A stretch of 20,243 nucleotides of DNA from Saccoglossus kowalevskii. Lineage: Eukaryota; Hemichordata; Enteropneusta; Harrimaniidae. Under the pieces are notes generated by a model. The model made no database searches and had not been told where the DNA came from. It saw only the letters and a list, made by a program, of their open reading frames with translations. Both the position numbers and the translations under genes were made by a program. Positions 3,286 to 18,840 of the stretch are shown one piece after another. The stretch's first letter is position 1; each line of letters starts with the position of its first letter. The stretch is taken from positions 404,162 to 424,404 of the forward strand of contig NW_003150758.1 of the NCBI RefSeq assembly GCF_000003605.2, in the 5' to 3' direction.

Positions 3286-3287
3286 TA

Positions 3288-11058: not shown

Positions 11059-11231
11059 CTGTAAAAGACTTTAATTTCGCTCAGAATTTATTATTCAGTG
11101 AAAATAAAATGTCTTTTTCTTATATTTTAACTTTAACTCATCACAAATCAGTGAAATAAATTCCATAAAAAAACACCCAAAATGTCTTTTCAGCGAAAAT
11201 TAATTCCAGATAAATATAAAGTATTTTACAG
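11059..11231 (-). mobile_element. CTGTAAAA MITE, subfamily A, inverted copy just upstream of MRPS16
   Basis: The ends are CTGTAAAAGACTTTAATTTC and AAAGTATTTTACAG with TA on both sides (11057-11058 and 11232-11233). Its reverse complement carries the same interior as the copies at 2589 and 14340: GGAATTAATTTTCGCTGAAA, then TTATGGAATTTATTTCACTG. So it sits in the opposite orientation. It ends 73 bases before the MRPS16 exon acceptor. An ATG inside it (11182) opens a frame that runs into MRPS16, but this is transposon-derived. Confidence 0.8.
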
Positions 11232-11325
11232 TACATCACATGACCAAGTGTGTGATACAAGTATTGTAAGCCTTAAAAAATACTTTTTTTGTGTTTTTTT
11301 ACAGTTAAATAATCAAAAACACAAA

Positions 11326-11557
11326 ATGGTGCTGCGTATCAGGCTAGCCTTACATGGGTGTACCAATAGACCTTTCTATCATCTAGTCGTCATAAATCAT
11401 CTACTGCCCAGAAACCATGTACCCTTAGAACACATAGGCTCATATGATCCAATGCCGAATAAGCATAACGAGAAGTTAGTAGCAGTGAATTTTGAAAGGT
11501 TAAAATATTGGATTGCAGAAGGTGCTGAACTCACTAAGCCATCTGCATTATTATTAG
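11326..11557 (+). CDS. MRPS16: MRPS16, coding exon 1
   Basis: Codes for residues 1-77 and the first base of codon 78. It is preceded by a T-rich tract and ACAG (acceptor at 11303-11304), so the exon itself probably begins at 11305 with 21 bases of 5' UTR. Confidence 0.9.
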
Positions 11558-13839
11558 GTGAGTATGAAGTTCCACTCGGAATTATTAAATTAAAGTACAA
11601 CACTGCACATGATGGGGTTTTAATATATTTGGACTCATACCCTACTAAGTGCCCATCTCTCCAAATTTCCCCAAAAATTTGACTGTCTAGTCATAAAACC
11701 TGTTTTTTTTTACATATACTGGTAATCGAATGTATATATTACAGCATAGATATCCATTGCTATTAATATTGTGTGAATGTGTAAACTAAGCTTCAAAAAT
11801 GACCTGTTAAGAACCATCATGAAAGCCATTAAATACTTCTTTCAACATTTCAGTTTACATTTCAACAATTGCTAATTAATTTTTTTTTTAATTTTTCGCT
11901 GAAATCAATTTTTTGACATTGATAGTTCCCTTTCACATTGTTACCAGAATGCTTTCGGGAATTCTTAGAGAAATTTGTTGGTGCAACATTGGTCAATAAT
12001 TGACTCAACCTATCAGGTCAAGCAACGTTGCTGCAAGTTGTGCAGAAAACATAATTCGGGAAATGCTTTGTCTCAAGAGTTTGTATATGATCGAATTCAT
12101 TTAACATCAAAGATAATGTTAAACATTCTTGACTTCAATATTTTCCCACAGACCCTAATAATTAAGCATATATTTATAATTAAGTATAATGTAAATTCTG
12201 ATGGTACATGAATAATATTTAAATAAAATGTGCATGTTTTTTATGACCATTTTTGTTTCCTTGGTTGACCATTTTTGTTTCCTTGGTGTACTGTCATGGA
12301 AATTAATTAATGATGACGCAACTAATTTTGCAATTTTATTTTTCCCCACAAAAGACAAAAATTGCAATTGTCATTTGCTTAATTTTTCAAAGGATTGCTT
12401 GCGTAAGTGCTTAATTAGGATATACACAAAATTTAAAAACTTGGATGCCATTTTTGGCTCAACGGACCATAGGTCTACTGAGCCTATGGGATGGGTTTCT
12501 GACCTGCGTCTGTCGTCCGTCTATCTATCTGTCTGTCTGTGCACGACTTCTTCTCAAAAACTACCAAACCGTTTGACTCGATTTGGTGTGTGGATGCCTT
12601 GATGAGTGTAGATGGTAATTTGTTCATGAGAAGTCGATCTGCCAAAAATTATGCAAATTAGCCCCCTAAAACTCTGAAATTTCTTCTATGCTACTATGAC
12701 AATAAGTGGTCTACAGTGCTGATATTGATAGTGCATGTGCCTTGGGTTGTCCTGTATCAGTTTTGTTAATTTAGTAAGGAAATTTTCAATTGGCAAATAT
12801 TTTAAAATGGTCATTTTGGGTCAAAAATTCTATTTTTGACTTCTTCGTCAAAACCGGTAGCCTGAATGCTTTGATAATTGGCGTGTATGTACCTTGGGTG
12901 GACCTCTATCAGATTTGTTCATTTCATGTCCATATCTTCAATTTTCTATTTTTAGCGAATATTTTTTTTCATTTTTGGTCAAAAATGCTATTTTCGACTT
13001 CTTCTCCAAAACTGGCAGTCCGGTTGCTCTCAAACCAAAACTCTAAGTTTTCTTTGATTGGTCTATTGTGATTGTAATAAAAACATAACCACTCAACATA
13101 TTTAAATGTGTATAGACATGATTGATTTTGCTGGAATATTATGCAAATTGCCCAATTTACGTACCAATATTTAGGCTATTTTGGTGATATCTTGAGAACC
13201 ATTTAGTATGTTTTAATAAAACTTGGTGCATAGATGTGTTGGGGCAGTTTTTAGATATATTTAGTTTTTGGTGTAAATTTATGCAAATTATCTAATTTGC
13301 ATATCAGCTAGTGAAATTTCAACAAAACTTGGTATATACACGTATTACGAATTCAGATAATTGCAAATATCATGTTATGTTATTCTCTCAACATGCTGGA
13401 GTTCTTTTTAAGCTCTCTTTGATTCTAATTTTATTGAATATTTTTGTTATTTTTGTAAAAAATTCCACTTTTAACATTATGTTTTATTGTCTCACTCACT
13501 GCCTTTTGGGTATTTGTCATATACAGCACTAATCTTTTGTACAATAGCCGTTGAGCAACAGGCCATTGGCCTATTTTTGTCTTTTACTCAAGTTACAATT
13601 TACAAAGAAAACGGAAGATTCAAAATGAACAACCCCGGGGGGGGGGGGGGTAATAGCAATCCAAACATCTTGTCTTTTCTGTCTTCCTTTTTTATTCCCA
13701 TGCAGGATTATCTGGATTTTTTCCTATTCATCCAATGAGTTTTGTTCAAGCACGGCGAGCCAGGAATAAAGCAAAAGAGGAGAAAGCTGCTACAGCACAA
13801 CAGGAATCAGAAACCAATGACAATGAAGATGACAATTAA
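11326..13839 (+). CDS. MRPS16: Mitochondrial ribosomal protein S16 (two coding exons, join 11326-11557 and 13706-13839)
   Basis: This is a small-subunit mitoribosomal protein of the bacterial S16 (bS16m) family, acting in mitochondrial translation. The spliced product has 121 residues. Family features in order: MVLRIRLALHGCTNRPFYHL (1-20), then VPLEHIGSYDPMPN, LVAVNFERLKYWI and GAELTKP, then across the splice junction LLLG|LSGFFPIHPMS. The tail is charged (RRARNKAKEEK, then an acidic end). The donor is TTAG|GTGAGT (intron from 11558) and the acceptor is CATGCAG|GA (13705), phase 1, giving a 2,148-bp intron. The ATG at 11326 has a strong context (ACAAAATGG) and matches the start of bacterial S16 proteins. 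The frame is open upstream, but that part crosses a splice acceptor and a MITE. Human MRPS16 is longer at the N-terminus by about 14 residues. Confidence 0.93.
12244..12287. repeat. Perfect 22-bp tandem duplication
   Basis: Two identical adjacent copies of a 22-base unit starting TGACCATTTTTG and ending CCTTGGT, in the MRPS16 intron. Perfect identity suggests a recent slippage or duplication event. Confidence 0.95.
12467..12489 (-). repeat. 3' terminal hairpin of the minus-strand Helentron-like element
   Basis: CCATAGG (12467-12473) and CCTATGG (12483-12489) form a perfect 7-bp stem with a 9-base loop, next to the microsatellite. Confidence 0.7.
12505..12542. repeat. Compound tetranucleotide microsatellite (CTGT/CTAT/CCGT)
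   Basis: A run of GTCTGTCGTCCGTCTATC-type tetramers leading into (CTGT)n, lying between the core repeats and the hairpin of the minus-strand element. Confidence 0.8.
13637..13650. repeat. G14 homopolymer preceded by CCCC
   Basis: An uninterrupted G run of 14 preceded by four C, in the MRPS16 intron about 55 bases before the final acceptor. The exact length may be affected by sequencing error. Confidence 0.9.
13706..13839 (+). CDS. MRPS16: MRPS16, coding exon 2 (terminal)
   Basis: Completes Gly78 and codes for LSGFFPIHPMSFVQARRARN, a Lys/Glu-rich stretch and an acidic C-terminus (NDNEDDN-stop at 13837-13839). The acceptor follows the pyrimidine-rich TTCCTTTTTTATTCCCATGCAG region. A C4G14 run lies about 55 bases upstream of the acceptor. 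Confidence 0.9.
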
Positions 13840-14049: not shown

Positions 14050-14920
14050 TTTTTTTTATAATCATATTCATCATACTCCTAATACTATAAGTTGTGTTAT
14101 TTTTCGTTTTTATCAAATTTGACAGCCATTTTATTAAAATAAAATTGCAGTATATAAACATGTCCATAACTGTTTCTCGGAGATAGACAGGATGATTTCA
14201 TTCATCATAATCATGCATGGGTGCATGTTAAATTTTCAAAAAAATAGTCAATAGTCAGCCATTTTATTTAAGTTTTTATTTAAATTCATGCCTATTAATA
14301 TTTTGCCTGATTCAACCAAAAGTTTGTATGCAAGTACTACTGTAAAATAATTTATTTTAGCTGGAGTTAATTTTCGCTGAAAAAAAAATGTTTTGTATGG
14401 ACTTTATTTTCACTGATTTTTGAAAGTTGAATGTAAAATATACAAAAAAAAAGTTATGTAAACTGGATTTTATTTTCACTGAACCATTTCTTCTTTGAAA
14501 AACAGTGAAAATTAATTCCAAGTGAAAATAAAGTATTTAACAGTAAACTCTTCGGTAATAATGTAGGCTGTGGTATTTCATAATACATTGTAGATCAAAT
14601 TTGTCAAATTGATGGCCATTTTGTCTAAAATCGCAGTTTGTGAATGTGTCCTGATCCCTTTCTTCGAGACGAACATGGTAATTTTATTGTAACTTAGTAT
14701 CATGATCATGCAAATTGTCTTGCACATGCACGTCATATTTTTTTTATAAGATTCCAACAAAATTGGCCAACTGGCAGCCATTTTCTTTTTGTTCATGGTC
14801 ATGCTGATTCATCACTTATATATTGCCTGAGTTTAAACTTTGTACATAAGTACTATACCCATAGGTTGTGTGATTTTGTGTGACTTGATCAAATTTGTCG
14901 GATTGATGATTATTTTGTAT
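14050..14920. repeat. Degenerate tandem repeat block around 'caaatttg...gccatttt'
   Basis: Blocks around 14115, 14590 and 14885 share 'TATCAAATTTG/GATCAAATTTGTC', '(GG)CCATTTTGT' and 'AAAATTGCAGT', followed by a TGTCC or TGTG stretch. Two units also share the junction block 'GTATGCAAGTACTA'/'GTACATAAGTACTA'. The first of these junctions is interrupted by the MITE at 14340. No coding capacity. Confidence 0.55.
14340..14543 (+). mobile_element. CTGTAAAA MITE, subfamily A, copy nested in a repeat unit
   Basis: The ends are CTGTAAAATAATTTATTTT and AAAATAAAGTATTTAACAG, flanked by TA (14338-14339 and 14544-14545). The 204-bp interior matches the copy at 2589 (TTGTATGGA-TTTATTTTCA, GTTGAATGTAAAATATA). 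The flanking GTACTA is found uninterrupted in a related unit at about 14848, so the insertion site is visible. Confidence 0.82.
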
Positions 14921-15399: not shown

Positions 15400-15720
15400 T
15401 CCAAAAGACTAGATGGATGCCAGTCGGCCAACTTTGATCTGATTTTGAAACAAACTGAAATAAACATGCATTCCTATATTTATAATGTATGTGCCAAATA
15501 AGAATGAAAATGGAGATGTAGTAGTATTGTCAAAAAGCAAGATGGCTGCCAGTCGGCCATCTTTGATCCGATTGTAAAACAAATTGTTGTGGACATGTAA
15601 TCTAAAATGTACAATGTATTTATCAAATTTGAACAAAATCTGACTAAGCATGCATAAGTATAAAGTACTAGGCACATACAAAAAATGAACAGATTTGGTT
15701 CAGGGTTCTGAAATATGACG
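15400..15720. repeat. Two 129-bp repeat units in inverted orientation to the 14-kb block
   Basis: 'GATGGATGCCAGTCGGCCA' at 15412 and 'GATGGCTGCCAGTCGGCCA' at 15541 start two diverged units followed by TTTGATC-GATT. Their reverse complement resembles 'GGCCAACTGGCAGCCATTTT' at about 14763, so this block faces the other way. AAGATGGC and GCCATCTT (15539-15563) form a perfect 8-bp stem. Confidence 0.55.
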
Positions 15721-16284
15721 GAATTATAAGTCCCGGTTTGAATGGAGACTAAAAATAACTAGCCAATCAGAGCATCATGCAAAACATTTTTATCGGTTCA
15801 CAAATTCACTAGCCTTTAGGATTGTGGACTGGTTAATGTTCTCAAAGTTTGTACAAATCAATGTCAGCTTGGTAGAGTTTTTTCTGTTTTGTAGGTCCAA
15901 ATAAGTAGTCATTTTTTTAGCCTAATGGTCTGTCATAATTCTGATGAATCCACGTGATGGCCACAAGCAAATTCCTGCGCAAAAAGCAAGATTTTCATTT
16001 TAGAAACAAATACAAGAACACATAATACTACAAAATAGATTTGAATTCCATGAAGCAGCGTTCTGAGAAAATTGATTTAGTTTTTGAAAGTTGTCCTTTT
16101 GGTTTGGTTTAAAGCATTGTTACCAAGTGTGAAAATATGGGTTTATGTGTCACCAATAACCTCCAATACTAGTAATAATGAACACAGTTCACCACAAAGT
16201 GTCAAAGGCAAGATGTTCAACACGTAATGTCTGTGGGAAATCTCAAGCTTTGTCTCCACAGTCCTGTCATATGCAAGCAATGTA
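15721..16284. other. Intergenic, nothing recognised
   Basis: No frames or repeats of note. It leads into the hairpin at 16285 and the Helentron-like element. Confidence 0.35.
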
Positions 16285-16317
16285 ATGGAATAGCTACTTT
16301 TTCTGCCGCTATTCCAT
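16285..16317. repeat. Perfect 10-bp stem hairpin upstream of the plus-strand Helentron-like element
   Basis: ATGGAATAGC (16285-16294) and GCTATTCCAT (16308-16317) are exact reverse complements separated by a 13-base loop. The hairpin lies 19 bases before the left sub-terminal repeat of the element. Confidence 0.75.
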
Positions 16318-16559
16318 GAATGTAATCAAAGAAAGGACTCCCGTGTGCTGAGAGTATTGGAGACACATTAAAATTAATTCAAAATTTAAGATTCGCTTTT
16401 CAAACAAGAAGCTTGGCAACTAATTTTTGTCTATCTGAGATGCATAACATGAAAAAAATGTGATTCACATTATCAAAATTTAAAATGTATACAGAAAATA
16501 CATTTGATTTTTCATCCATGGTTTTTAGTCTAAATAGTTCCAGAGCATCTCTGCAATGA

Positions 16560-17840
16560 ATTCAATTTAAATCTAATTTTTTAGATATCAGAATTGGGCT
16601 AATAATAGATAATCAATATGCATGTTCATCAACATTAAACTAATCATGTCTGTGGATTACCTCAATGAACCAAATGAATTATTATAAAAATTAAGCAATT
16701 ATTATGCATAGATTTAGTTCTGTATATTGTTTTAGGGTGCACATGTGCACAAGTTTCATTATAATATGATGATTAATCCTAACTAAATCAGTGGAAAGCT
16801 GAAAAGTAAATTATTATGCAAATTATTCATTTATTATAGATGTATATAAACCTAAAACTAATTTGATCATCATATTGTGTTGGAGTACATACCAAGATTC
16901 ACTGAATTAAAATAAGTACTGTCACAGACCATCTATGTACAAAGTTTCATTCGAATGTGATTAAAACCAAAAATTATGATTTATTATGCAAATTAGGTAA
17001 TTAATATGATCTGATTTTAACCTAAAAATGAGTGGGTCTGTGCATTGTTCTGGAGCATCAATGTACCAAGTTTCATTGAAATGAAATAATTAGTACATGT
17101 GATATCAGTGTAAAAGATGAAAATTGGCTAATTATGCAAATTAGGTAATTAATATGCACTGATTTTAATCCAAAACTAATCAGGTCTGTGCATTGTCCTA
17201 GAACATCTATGTACCAAGATTCATTAAAATGGAATAATTAGTACTTGCGATATCAGTGTGAAAGCCACAAATTAACTAATTATGCAAATTAGTTGATTAA
17301 TATGCACACATTTTTACTTAAAATTAATCAGGTCTTTGGGTGGTTCTAGTGCATCCATGTACCACGTTTTATTGAAAAGTAATGAAGTAATAGTACTTGT
17401 AATATCAATGGCTGAAAATTGATTAATTATGCAAATTAGGTAATTAATATTTCGCATATCTGTCTGTGCATCGTTACATGTCTCTATGTAAGTTTCATTG
17501 AAATGTGATGACTAGCACCTGAAATATCAGTGGAAAAGCCGAAAATTGACTAATCATTATGTAAATTAGGTTAATTTTATGCATGGATTTTTACCCAAAA
17601 CTAATCACATCTGTGCATTAGTCCAGAGCATATATGTACAAAATTTCTTCAAAATCTAATGAATGGCTCTTTGGATATCAGTGGAACAGTCAAGGAAGAG
17701 CTAAAAATTAGCTAATTATCATGCAAATCAGGCAATTAATATGTATGGATTTCAACCCAAACCTAATCAAATCTGCGCATTAGCCCAGAGCATATATACA
17801 CCAAGTTTCATTAAAAAACAACATACGGTTCTTGAGATAT
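16560..17840. repeat. ~148-bp core tandem array
   Basis: Successive ATGCAAATTA markers are 170, 148, 148, 147, 130 and 162 bases apart. Each unit contains an octamer-like ATGCAAAT, AATTAATATGCA, AAACTAATCA, GTACCAAGTTTCATT and a GATATCAGTG block. Units diverge by small indels, so the array is old. Shorter decayed units begin near 16590. Confidence 0.8.
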
Positions 17841-17864
17841 CACACACACACACACACACACACA
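17841..17864. repeat. (CA)12 microsatellite
   Basis: Uninterrupted CA dinucleotides joined directly to the last core repeat (GAGATAT-CACACA) of the Helentron-like element. Confidence 0.95.
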
Positions 17865-17886
17865 TACTGACAGGGTAATTGCAAAA

Positions 17887-17916
17887 ACTCCCATTGTGTG
17901 CTTCGCACACGGGAGT
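17887..17916 (+). repeat. 3' terminal hairpin of the plus-strand Helentron-like element
   Basis: An inner stem GTGTGC/GCACAC with a TTC loop is enclosed by an outer stem ACTCCC/GGGAGT, separated on one side by ATT. That gives twelve perfect pairs with one asymmetric bulge. The right arm doubles as the sub-terminal inverted repeat. Confidence 0.85.
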
Positions 17917-18840
17917 AAAAAAAACACGTTCGAAAAAAGGTAATCCAAAATCGAAAATAAGTATAATCAGCTGGTCATTTTGACCTATAATACACGTTTT
18001 CGTGCTGGGAGTCAACATGCCTGAAAGATAGTAACTGCCAGTGTATTTGTAGGCGTCTCTTGAATAAATAAATATATTTATTATAAAACGTAAATACAAG
18101 TACGCTAAGTAACCTCGTGATACACCTGCAATCTTATCGATATCACATAACACTTGTACAATACTATAAATAGACCTGTTAAATATATTTATTATTTTTT
18201 AAATAATATGATTGACCCTTTATTTGTGAAAGTTCCTCCCCCAGAGTTGTTAGTCCTACTACTGCACTGCCTGGAGAAAACGAGGTAACGGCAACAAAAT
18301 CCTGAAAATCCGTTTGTGTTTTCGTTATAACTTTTTTGTTTCGTGTGTTCGTAAACACTCTTAGTTTTCATTTATTTATTGGTATTTTCAAGATTTGTTA
18401 ACGCACAATCAGCAATGATGTACATTTCACACATGGTACACTATAGTTATAAGTGTGTCAACAACATGCTATTCCAATGTCATAATTTGAATTAGATAAA
18501 TCAGGCGCTAATGCCTTCAATAACAATATTTATAACACATTTTATTTTGATCGAGGTAAACTAAAATCCGCCTTTTAGCTGTAAGTGTTGTGATATGCCA
18601 ATGCCATAGCATATTCATTTCATAGCCCAGACACAGAAGCATTCTGTAAATTGCCATGTTTTATTTTTTTTATACATTTTCTGCCCAAATATAACTACAT
18701 GTATACTTTCTTCTGTACAGCCGAGATAAAGTTTGTCTTATACCCCTTTTATTCATTTTAATACCACAACAGTAATTTCAGCCAAGATAACTTTCTAGTC
18801 GTTGAGGAAGCCATTTGAAGAGACAATGTGTATTGTATGG
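17917..18840. other. Intergenic, nothing recognised
   Basis: AT-rich DNA with TATTTATTATAAA-type stretches at about 18070 and 18185. The frame at 17767-18153 is a read-through of the CA microsatellite and not a gene. Confidence 0.35.

Follow-up and report, generated by a model that had tools for sequence, protein, structure and literature searches.

Non-autonomous Helentrons (HINEs) have been described in oysters, mites and flies as composites of recurring modules. The Cg_HINE elements of Crassostrea gigas start with a 5' subTIR of 11-12 bp, followed by a complementary inverted repeat (IR) beyond a short spacer, a microsatellite, an array of tandem repeats, a 3' subTIR and a palindrome (Vojvoda Zeljko et al., 2020, PMC7492417). 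In the same study, their microsatellites consist mostly of 4-nt motifs and lie 10-500 bp from the array, their monomers are mostly 140-180 bp long and number up to 5 on average, and they insert at T-rich sites; no target duplication is reported for them there. The mite HINE-Mo and Drosophila DINE-1 elements have subTIRs of 12-15 bp (13 bp in DINE-1), a 3' palindrome and a T-rich insertion site, with a microsatellite and tandem repeats as optional parts; in HINE-Mo the subTIR lies 38-60 bp and the palindrome 8-35 bp from the 3' end, and in DINE-1 the 5' subTIR contains the 5' side of the IR (Thomas et al., 2014, PMC4067079). HINE insertion sites are described as T-rich, with at least 2 T on each side. 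The Pearl family of bivalves (CvA, CvE, CvG, DTC84 and MgE) consists of modular, non-autonomous molluscan elements whose internal repeats are similar to satellite monomers, and later papers file it with Helitron/Helentron (PMC11136912; PMC5139131; PMC7492417).

Our analysis of a 20,243-nt stretch of Saccoglossus kowalevskii DNA (the window) showed that it very probably holds a non-autonomous Helentron of the DINE-1/Pearl/Cg_HINE kind on its minus strand (element 1), starting about 2.4 kb past the stop codon of a gene for mitochondrial ribosomal protein S16 (Table 1). Read on that strand, its parts follow one another as T8, 5' subTIR, complementary IR, (TG)12, core array, 3' subTIR and palindrome, and in described layout the element resembles Cg_HINE of oysters, DINE-1 of flies, HINE-Mo of mites and the Pearl family. 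The HINE class is well supported by this anatomy, since the subTIRs are exact, the two ends differ in the way seen in Cg_HINE, the microsatellite is on the 5' side, the array lies between the end modules, no open reading frame (ORF) with a Pfam domain falls in the element, and a second probable element, built alike, is located at a distance of 2.7 kb. As in DINE-1, the 5' side of the IR is nested in the 5' subTIR, and both optional HINE parts are present, the microsatellite belonging to the 5' module and the tandem repeats lying in the centre. As in Pearl, the whole is modular, with internal repeats of satellite-like appearance.

Table 1. Parts of element 1 and of the probable element 2, each listed 5' to 3' on its own strand, with positions in the window.
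Element	Feature	Position	Strand	Basis
1	T8 run at 5' end	17917..17924	-	sequence
1	5' subTIR ACTCCCGTGTGC	17905..17916	-	exact match to other arm
1	IR complementary to 5' subTIR	17887..17901	-	fold: 12 pairs, 3-nt loop, 3-nt bulge
1	(TG)12 microsatellite, (CA)12 on the plus strand	17841..17864	-	sequence
1	array of degenerate core units, about eight (106-158 bp) and two fragments	16598..17856	-	nhmmer
1	3' subTIR GCACACGGGAGT (minus-strand letters)	16337..16348	-	match to the ACTCCCGTGTGC arm
1	3' palindrome, perfect 10-bp stem, 13-nt loop	16285..16317	-	stem search; absent from the originally predicted coordinates
1	candidate 3' terminus, TT of 16280-16279 or of 16276-16275	16275..16280	-	spacing and T-rich ends only
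2	T5, then 5' subTIR/IR GGCTCAACGGACC ATA GGTCTACTGAGCC	12451..12484	+	sequence, fold
2	degenerate GTCY-type microsatellite	12507..12541	+	sequence
2	pair of units of a separate tandem repeat, 152-158 apart	12720..13028	+	sequence
2	unit related to the element 1 core	13163..13304	+	nhmmer
2	imperfect 3' subTIR CCGTTGAGC, palindrome AGGCCATTGGCCT (13560-13572), T5 (13574-13578)	13548..13578	+	weak taken singly

The original prediction had placed exact 12-bp inverted repeats near both ends, a (CA)12 tract and a 12-pair hairpin with the inverted repeat as its right arm, and all three were confirmed. The 12-bp arms fall within the roughly 11-15 bp of HINE subTIRs at both ends; ACTCCCGTGTGC, on the plus strand at the left arm and on the minus strand at the right, has no third match in the window even when 1 mismatch is allowed, and none of 100 dinucleotide shuffles contained two. 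The hairpin formed by the 5' subTIR and its IR (17887-17916) folds with a z-score of -4.4 on the plus strand and -3.9 on the minus strand, with none of 200 shuffles equally stable on either strand. In the AT-rich window, inverted 12-mer pairs are frequent as such: of 300 shuffled windows, 211 contained a pair 0.3-4 kb apart with a GC count of at least 5, and 14 contained such a pair with an adjacent complementary stretch of at least 6. This last figure would suit a dispersed array of satellite type, not mobile as a unit, with inverted repeats and hairpins beside it by coincidence or as remnants; such monomers are indeed described as also forming stand-alone arrays in oysters. An inverted pair with a GC count of at least 8, however, arose in only 2 of 300 shuffles and is represented in the real window by the ACTCCCGTGTGC pair alone, the hairpin surpasses all 200 of its shuffles in stability, and the HINE order of array, microsatellite and palindrome would still have to be accounted for. 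We regard a satellite array as the least probable of the readings considered and set a plain satellite aside for element 1 on account of its structured, asymmetric ends; the earlier view that this is a defined unit has its support in the anatomy.

The ends of the element also indicate its direction. The complementary IR and the T8 run occur only at 17887-17924 and the outward palindrome only at 16285-16317; the left arm has no inward complementary IR (best stem 5, or 4 with the arm), and nothing palindromic lies beyond the right arm (best stem 5). The original prediction had read the element on the plus strand, with a 5' end at 16337 and the hairpin as its 3' terminator. Stem-loops near the 3' end are indeed usual in Helitrons and Helentrons and the subTIRs of mite HINEs are themselves palindromic (PMC4067079), and the hairpin is stabler than the palindrome (-10.0 to -10.3 vs -8.1 kcal/mol). 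In that orientation, however, the 5' arm would lack its IR, the microsatellite would end up at the 3' side and the 3' subTIR would have no palindrome beyond it, so that the four hallmarks do not come in the right order as had been claimed. The published Cg_HINE order (PMC7492417) is obtained on the minus strand only, and the layout of both ends leads us to rank a plus-strand HINE low, as very unlikely. The HINE/DINE-like class proposed originally thus agrees with the anatomy of the minus-strand element, whereas the direction was wrong and the palindrome was left out.

The 3' palindrome is the weakest part of the element 1 anatomy. Of 2000 shuffles of 16265-16336, 3 gave a 10-bp stem of this type, as did 2 of 561 real segments of equal size and 27 of the 4036 tiles sampled from the window. 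The fold energy of the palindrome is unremarkable, whether it is folded by itself (z -1.6, 17 of 200 shuffles as stable) or together with the 3' subTIR (z -1.5, 15 of 200). It does lie beyond the 3' subTIR, as in HINEs, at an uncertain distance from the element's end. Judged by spacing and T-richness, the element probably stops near 16279 on its 3' side and would then be about 1.65 kb long. An end at 16279 puts the 3' subTIR 58 bp and the palindrome 6 bp away, and an end at 16275 puts them 62 bp and 10 bp away; each candidate breaks one of the HINE-Mo ranges, and the fit to the mite spacing (PMC4067079) is therefore only approximate. T content at the flanks is uneven, with T8 on the 5' side, which we consider a probable insertion boundary, and only TT at both candidate 3' ends. 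Element 1 thus probably extends over about 16279-17924 on the minus strand, with approximate termini, and the interval 16337-17916, previously called complete, is not so, because the palindrome that fits a HINE 3' end lies beyond its left boundary.

Direct repeats of at least 5 bp are absent from the inferred ends of element 1, and likewise from the originally predicted ends at offsets of -6 to +6 and -10 to +10, but repeats of this length occur at 156 of 500 random places, and the missing repeat therefore says little. Repeats shorter than 5 bp at the ends are possible; the 4-bp GTAA at 16285 and 17915 falls inside the element. This result bears on whether element 1 might instead be a MITE or fold-back element, in which the 12-bp repeats would be terminal inverted repeats and a cut-and-paste transposase would provide mobility. 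There are inverted repeats at both ends, and HINE-like elements were once classed as MITEs, yet the ends are asymmetric and show no such duplication, subject to the high background just given. On both counts we ranked a MITE or fold-back element low and think it highly improbable.

The minus-strand HINE reading agrees in most respects with Cg_HINE (PMC7492417): a 5' subTIR of similar length has a complementary IR across a short spacer, a microsatellite and an array come next, the 3' subTIR and palindrome close the element, and the flank on the 5' side is T-rich. It departs from Cg_HINE in that its microsatellite is a dinucleotide abutting the array, which we counted against a HINE reading, and in its number of monomers, about eight. 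Core units were searched for with an nhmmer model built from three of the element 1 units, which were recovered by construction; beyond these, the model found three units with E-values of 8e-21 to 4e-18, two weaker ones (2e-7 and 3e-6) and two fragments (1e-4 and 3e-4). Pairwise identity among the eight units is 54.5-83.1%. The originally proposed count of about eight cores of some 148 bp was therefore right in number, whereas a regular 148-bp spacing is confined to 16983-17426 and the Tandem Repeats Finder (TRF) reported 3.2 copies of 148 bp.

The window contains 20 stop-to-stop ORFs of at least 80 aa, 12 of which were scanned against Pfam. The one ORF that overlaps element 1 has no Pfam match, consistent with a non-coding HINE, and no Rep, helicase or endonuclease domain was found in the 12 of 20 ORFs scanned. 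Pfam identified two genes among these 12, a ZIP zinc transporter and ribosomal S16, and two other scanned ORFs gave matches below the family cut-off only. The ZIP transporter is a single open frame of 383 codons at 1099-2250 on the plus strand (E 1.3e-66). The S16 match lies within 11155-11682 (E 4.8e-21), and the gene, also on the plus strand, seems to be split into 11155-11557, followed by a GT donor, and 13706-13839, preceded by an AG acceptor at 13704-13705 and ending in a stop codon at 13837-13839. We take its product to be the counterpart of human mitochondrial S16. The window also carries a MITE-like family, with one copy at 2586-2750 bounded by 26-nt inverted ends that are 92% complementary; its start motif TACTGTAAA is found at seven places, namely in this copy and at 3286, 7426, 7708, 8460, 11057 and 14338. 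At 15402-15638, a 108-nt stretch is present in two direct copies, 74% alike and 129 apart, and there is an inverted match between this repeat and 14740-14790.

Searches of other collections returned little. The element had no match in plasmid and phage collections, its 21-bp end pattern had none in viral_contigs or genome_contigs, and three further scans of viral_contigs gave 0, 0 and 1 match, the last limited to a short motif and taken as chance; since these collections hold virus, plasmid and prokaryote sequences and the element is an animal one, their silence weighs little. Rfam and tRNA searches gave 0 matches each. A literature text search with four element strings gave matches by the 11-mer CACACGGGAGT alone, in 5 papers on other subjects by title.

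A second probable HINE, element 2, occupies about 12451-13578 on the plus strand and, 5' end included, apparently lies entirely inside the presumed S16 intron. Its 5' fold is stabler than all 200 shuffles (z -3.4), with a minimum-energy pairing at 12466-12489 that differs from the drawn one; the 9-bp complement at this end arose in 19 of 5000 shuffles, but complements of at least 9 are also present at 276 of about 6600 18-mers of the window. At the other end, a GC-rich palindrome of the AGGCCATTGGCCT type occurs in 70 of 20213 30-nt tiles, and the 3' fold is not significant (z -1.5, 22 of 200 shuffles as stable). ATTTTT flanks element 2 on either side, in a window where direct repeats of at least 6 occur at 55 of 500 random places; these flanks may be T-rich ends or a target duplication, and the latter would speak against a Helentron.

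The two elements are related in their cores. The three-unit element 1 model matches 13303-13176, on the strand opposite to the model (nhmmer E 1.2e-9), and this unit of element 2 scores 32.1, whereas its 200 shuffles reach 2.5 at most. It shares 62.0-69.0% identity with five of the eight element 1 monomers and 55.6-59.2% with the other three, and has the same orientation in both elements, each relative to its own microsatellite. The end modules, by contrast with these cores, showed no similarity when compared with each other beyond one 8-base match (E 0.13). Oyster HINEs are reported as related throughout, related in their flanks only, or unrelated, and related cores with unrelated ends are a combination outside these three groups (PMC7492417). 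We suggest tentatively, as a possibility that we hold to be rather unlikely, that cores pass between rolling-circle families or are repeatedly captured from one satellite, a core being a semi-independent passenger that changes vehicles; for the one pair of elements compared here, repeated capture from one satellite explains the data as well as an exchange of cores between families would.

Element 1 seems to be non-coding, and its copying is probably the work of an enzyme encoded elsewhere in the genome. By analogy with the Helentron family, from which its mobility, the enzyme and all copying steps are deduced, the Rep/helicase/endonuclease of an autonomous Helentron located elsewhere would recognise the hairpin of 5' subTIR and IR as well as the 3' subTIR and palindrome, and would nick the T-rich 5' end. 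One strand would then be copied or peeled off as far as the 3' palindrome, and the single-stranded rolling-circle product would be joined to a T-rich site without target duplication. The T8 run at the 5' end and the lack of a duplication of at least 5 bp are consistent with this scheme, the latter being a test of little power in view of the random background. Core monomers would be passengers, the number of which could shift by slippage or recombination, and with such a changeable core number the element would carry and seed satellite-like arrays.

Taken by itself, element 1 is an ordinary, well-preserved HINE. It illustrates that the direction of a HINE should be judged from the side that bears subTIR, IR and microsatellite, and not from the strongest hairpin. 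Together, elements 1 and 2, with their different ends and partly shared core, provide a concrete, testable example of a way in which satellite-like repeats may travel between Helentron families; if this were true genome-wide, it would mean that a core repeat spreads by switching vehicles.
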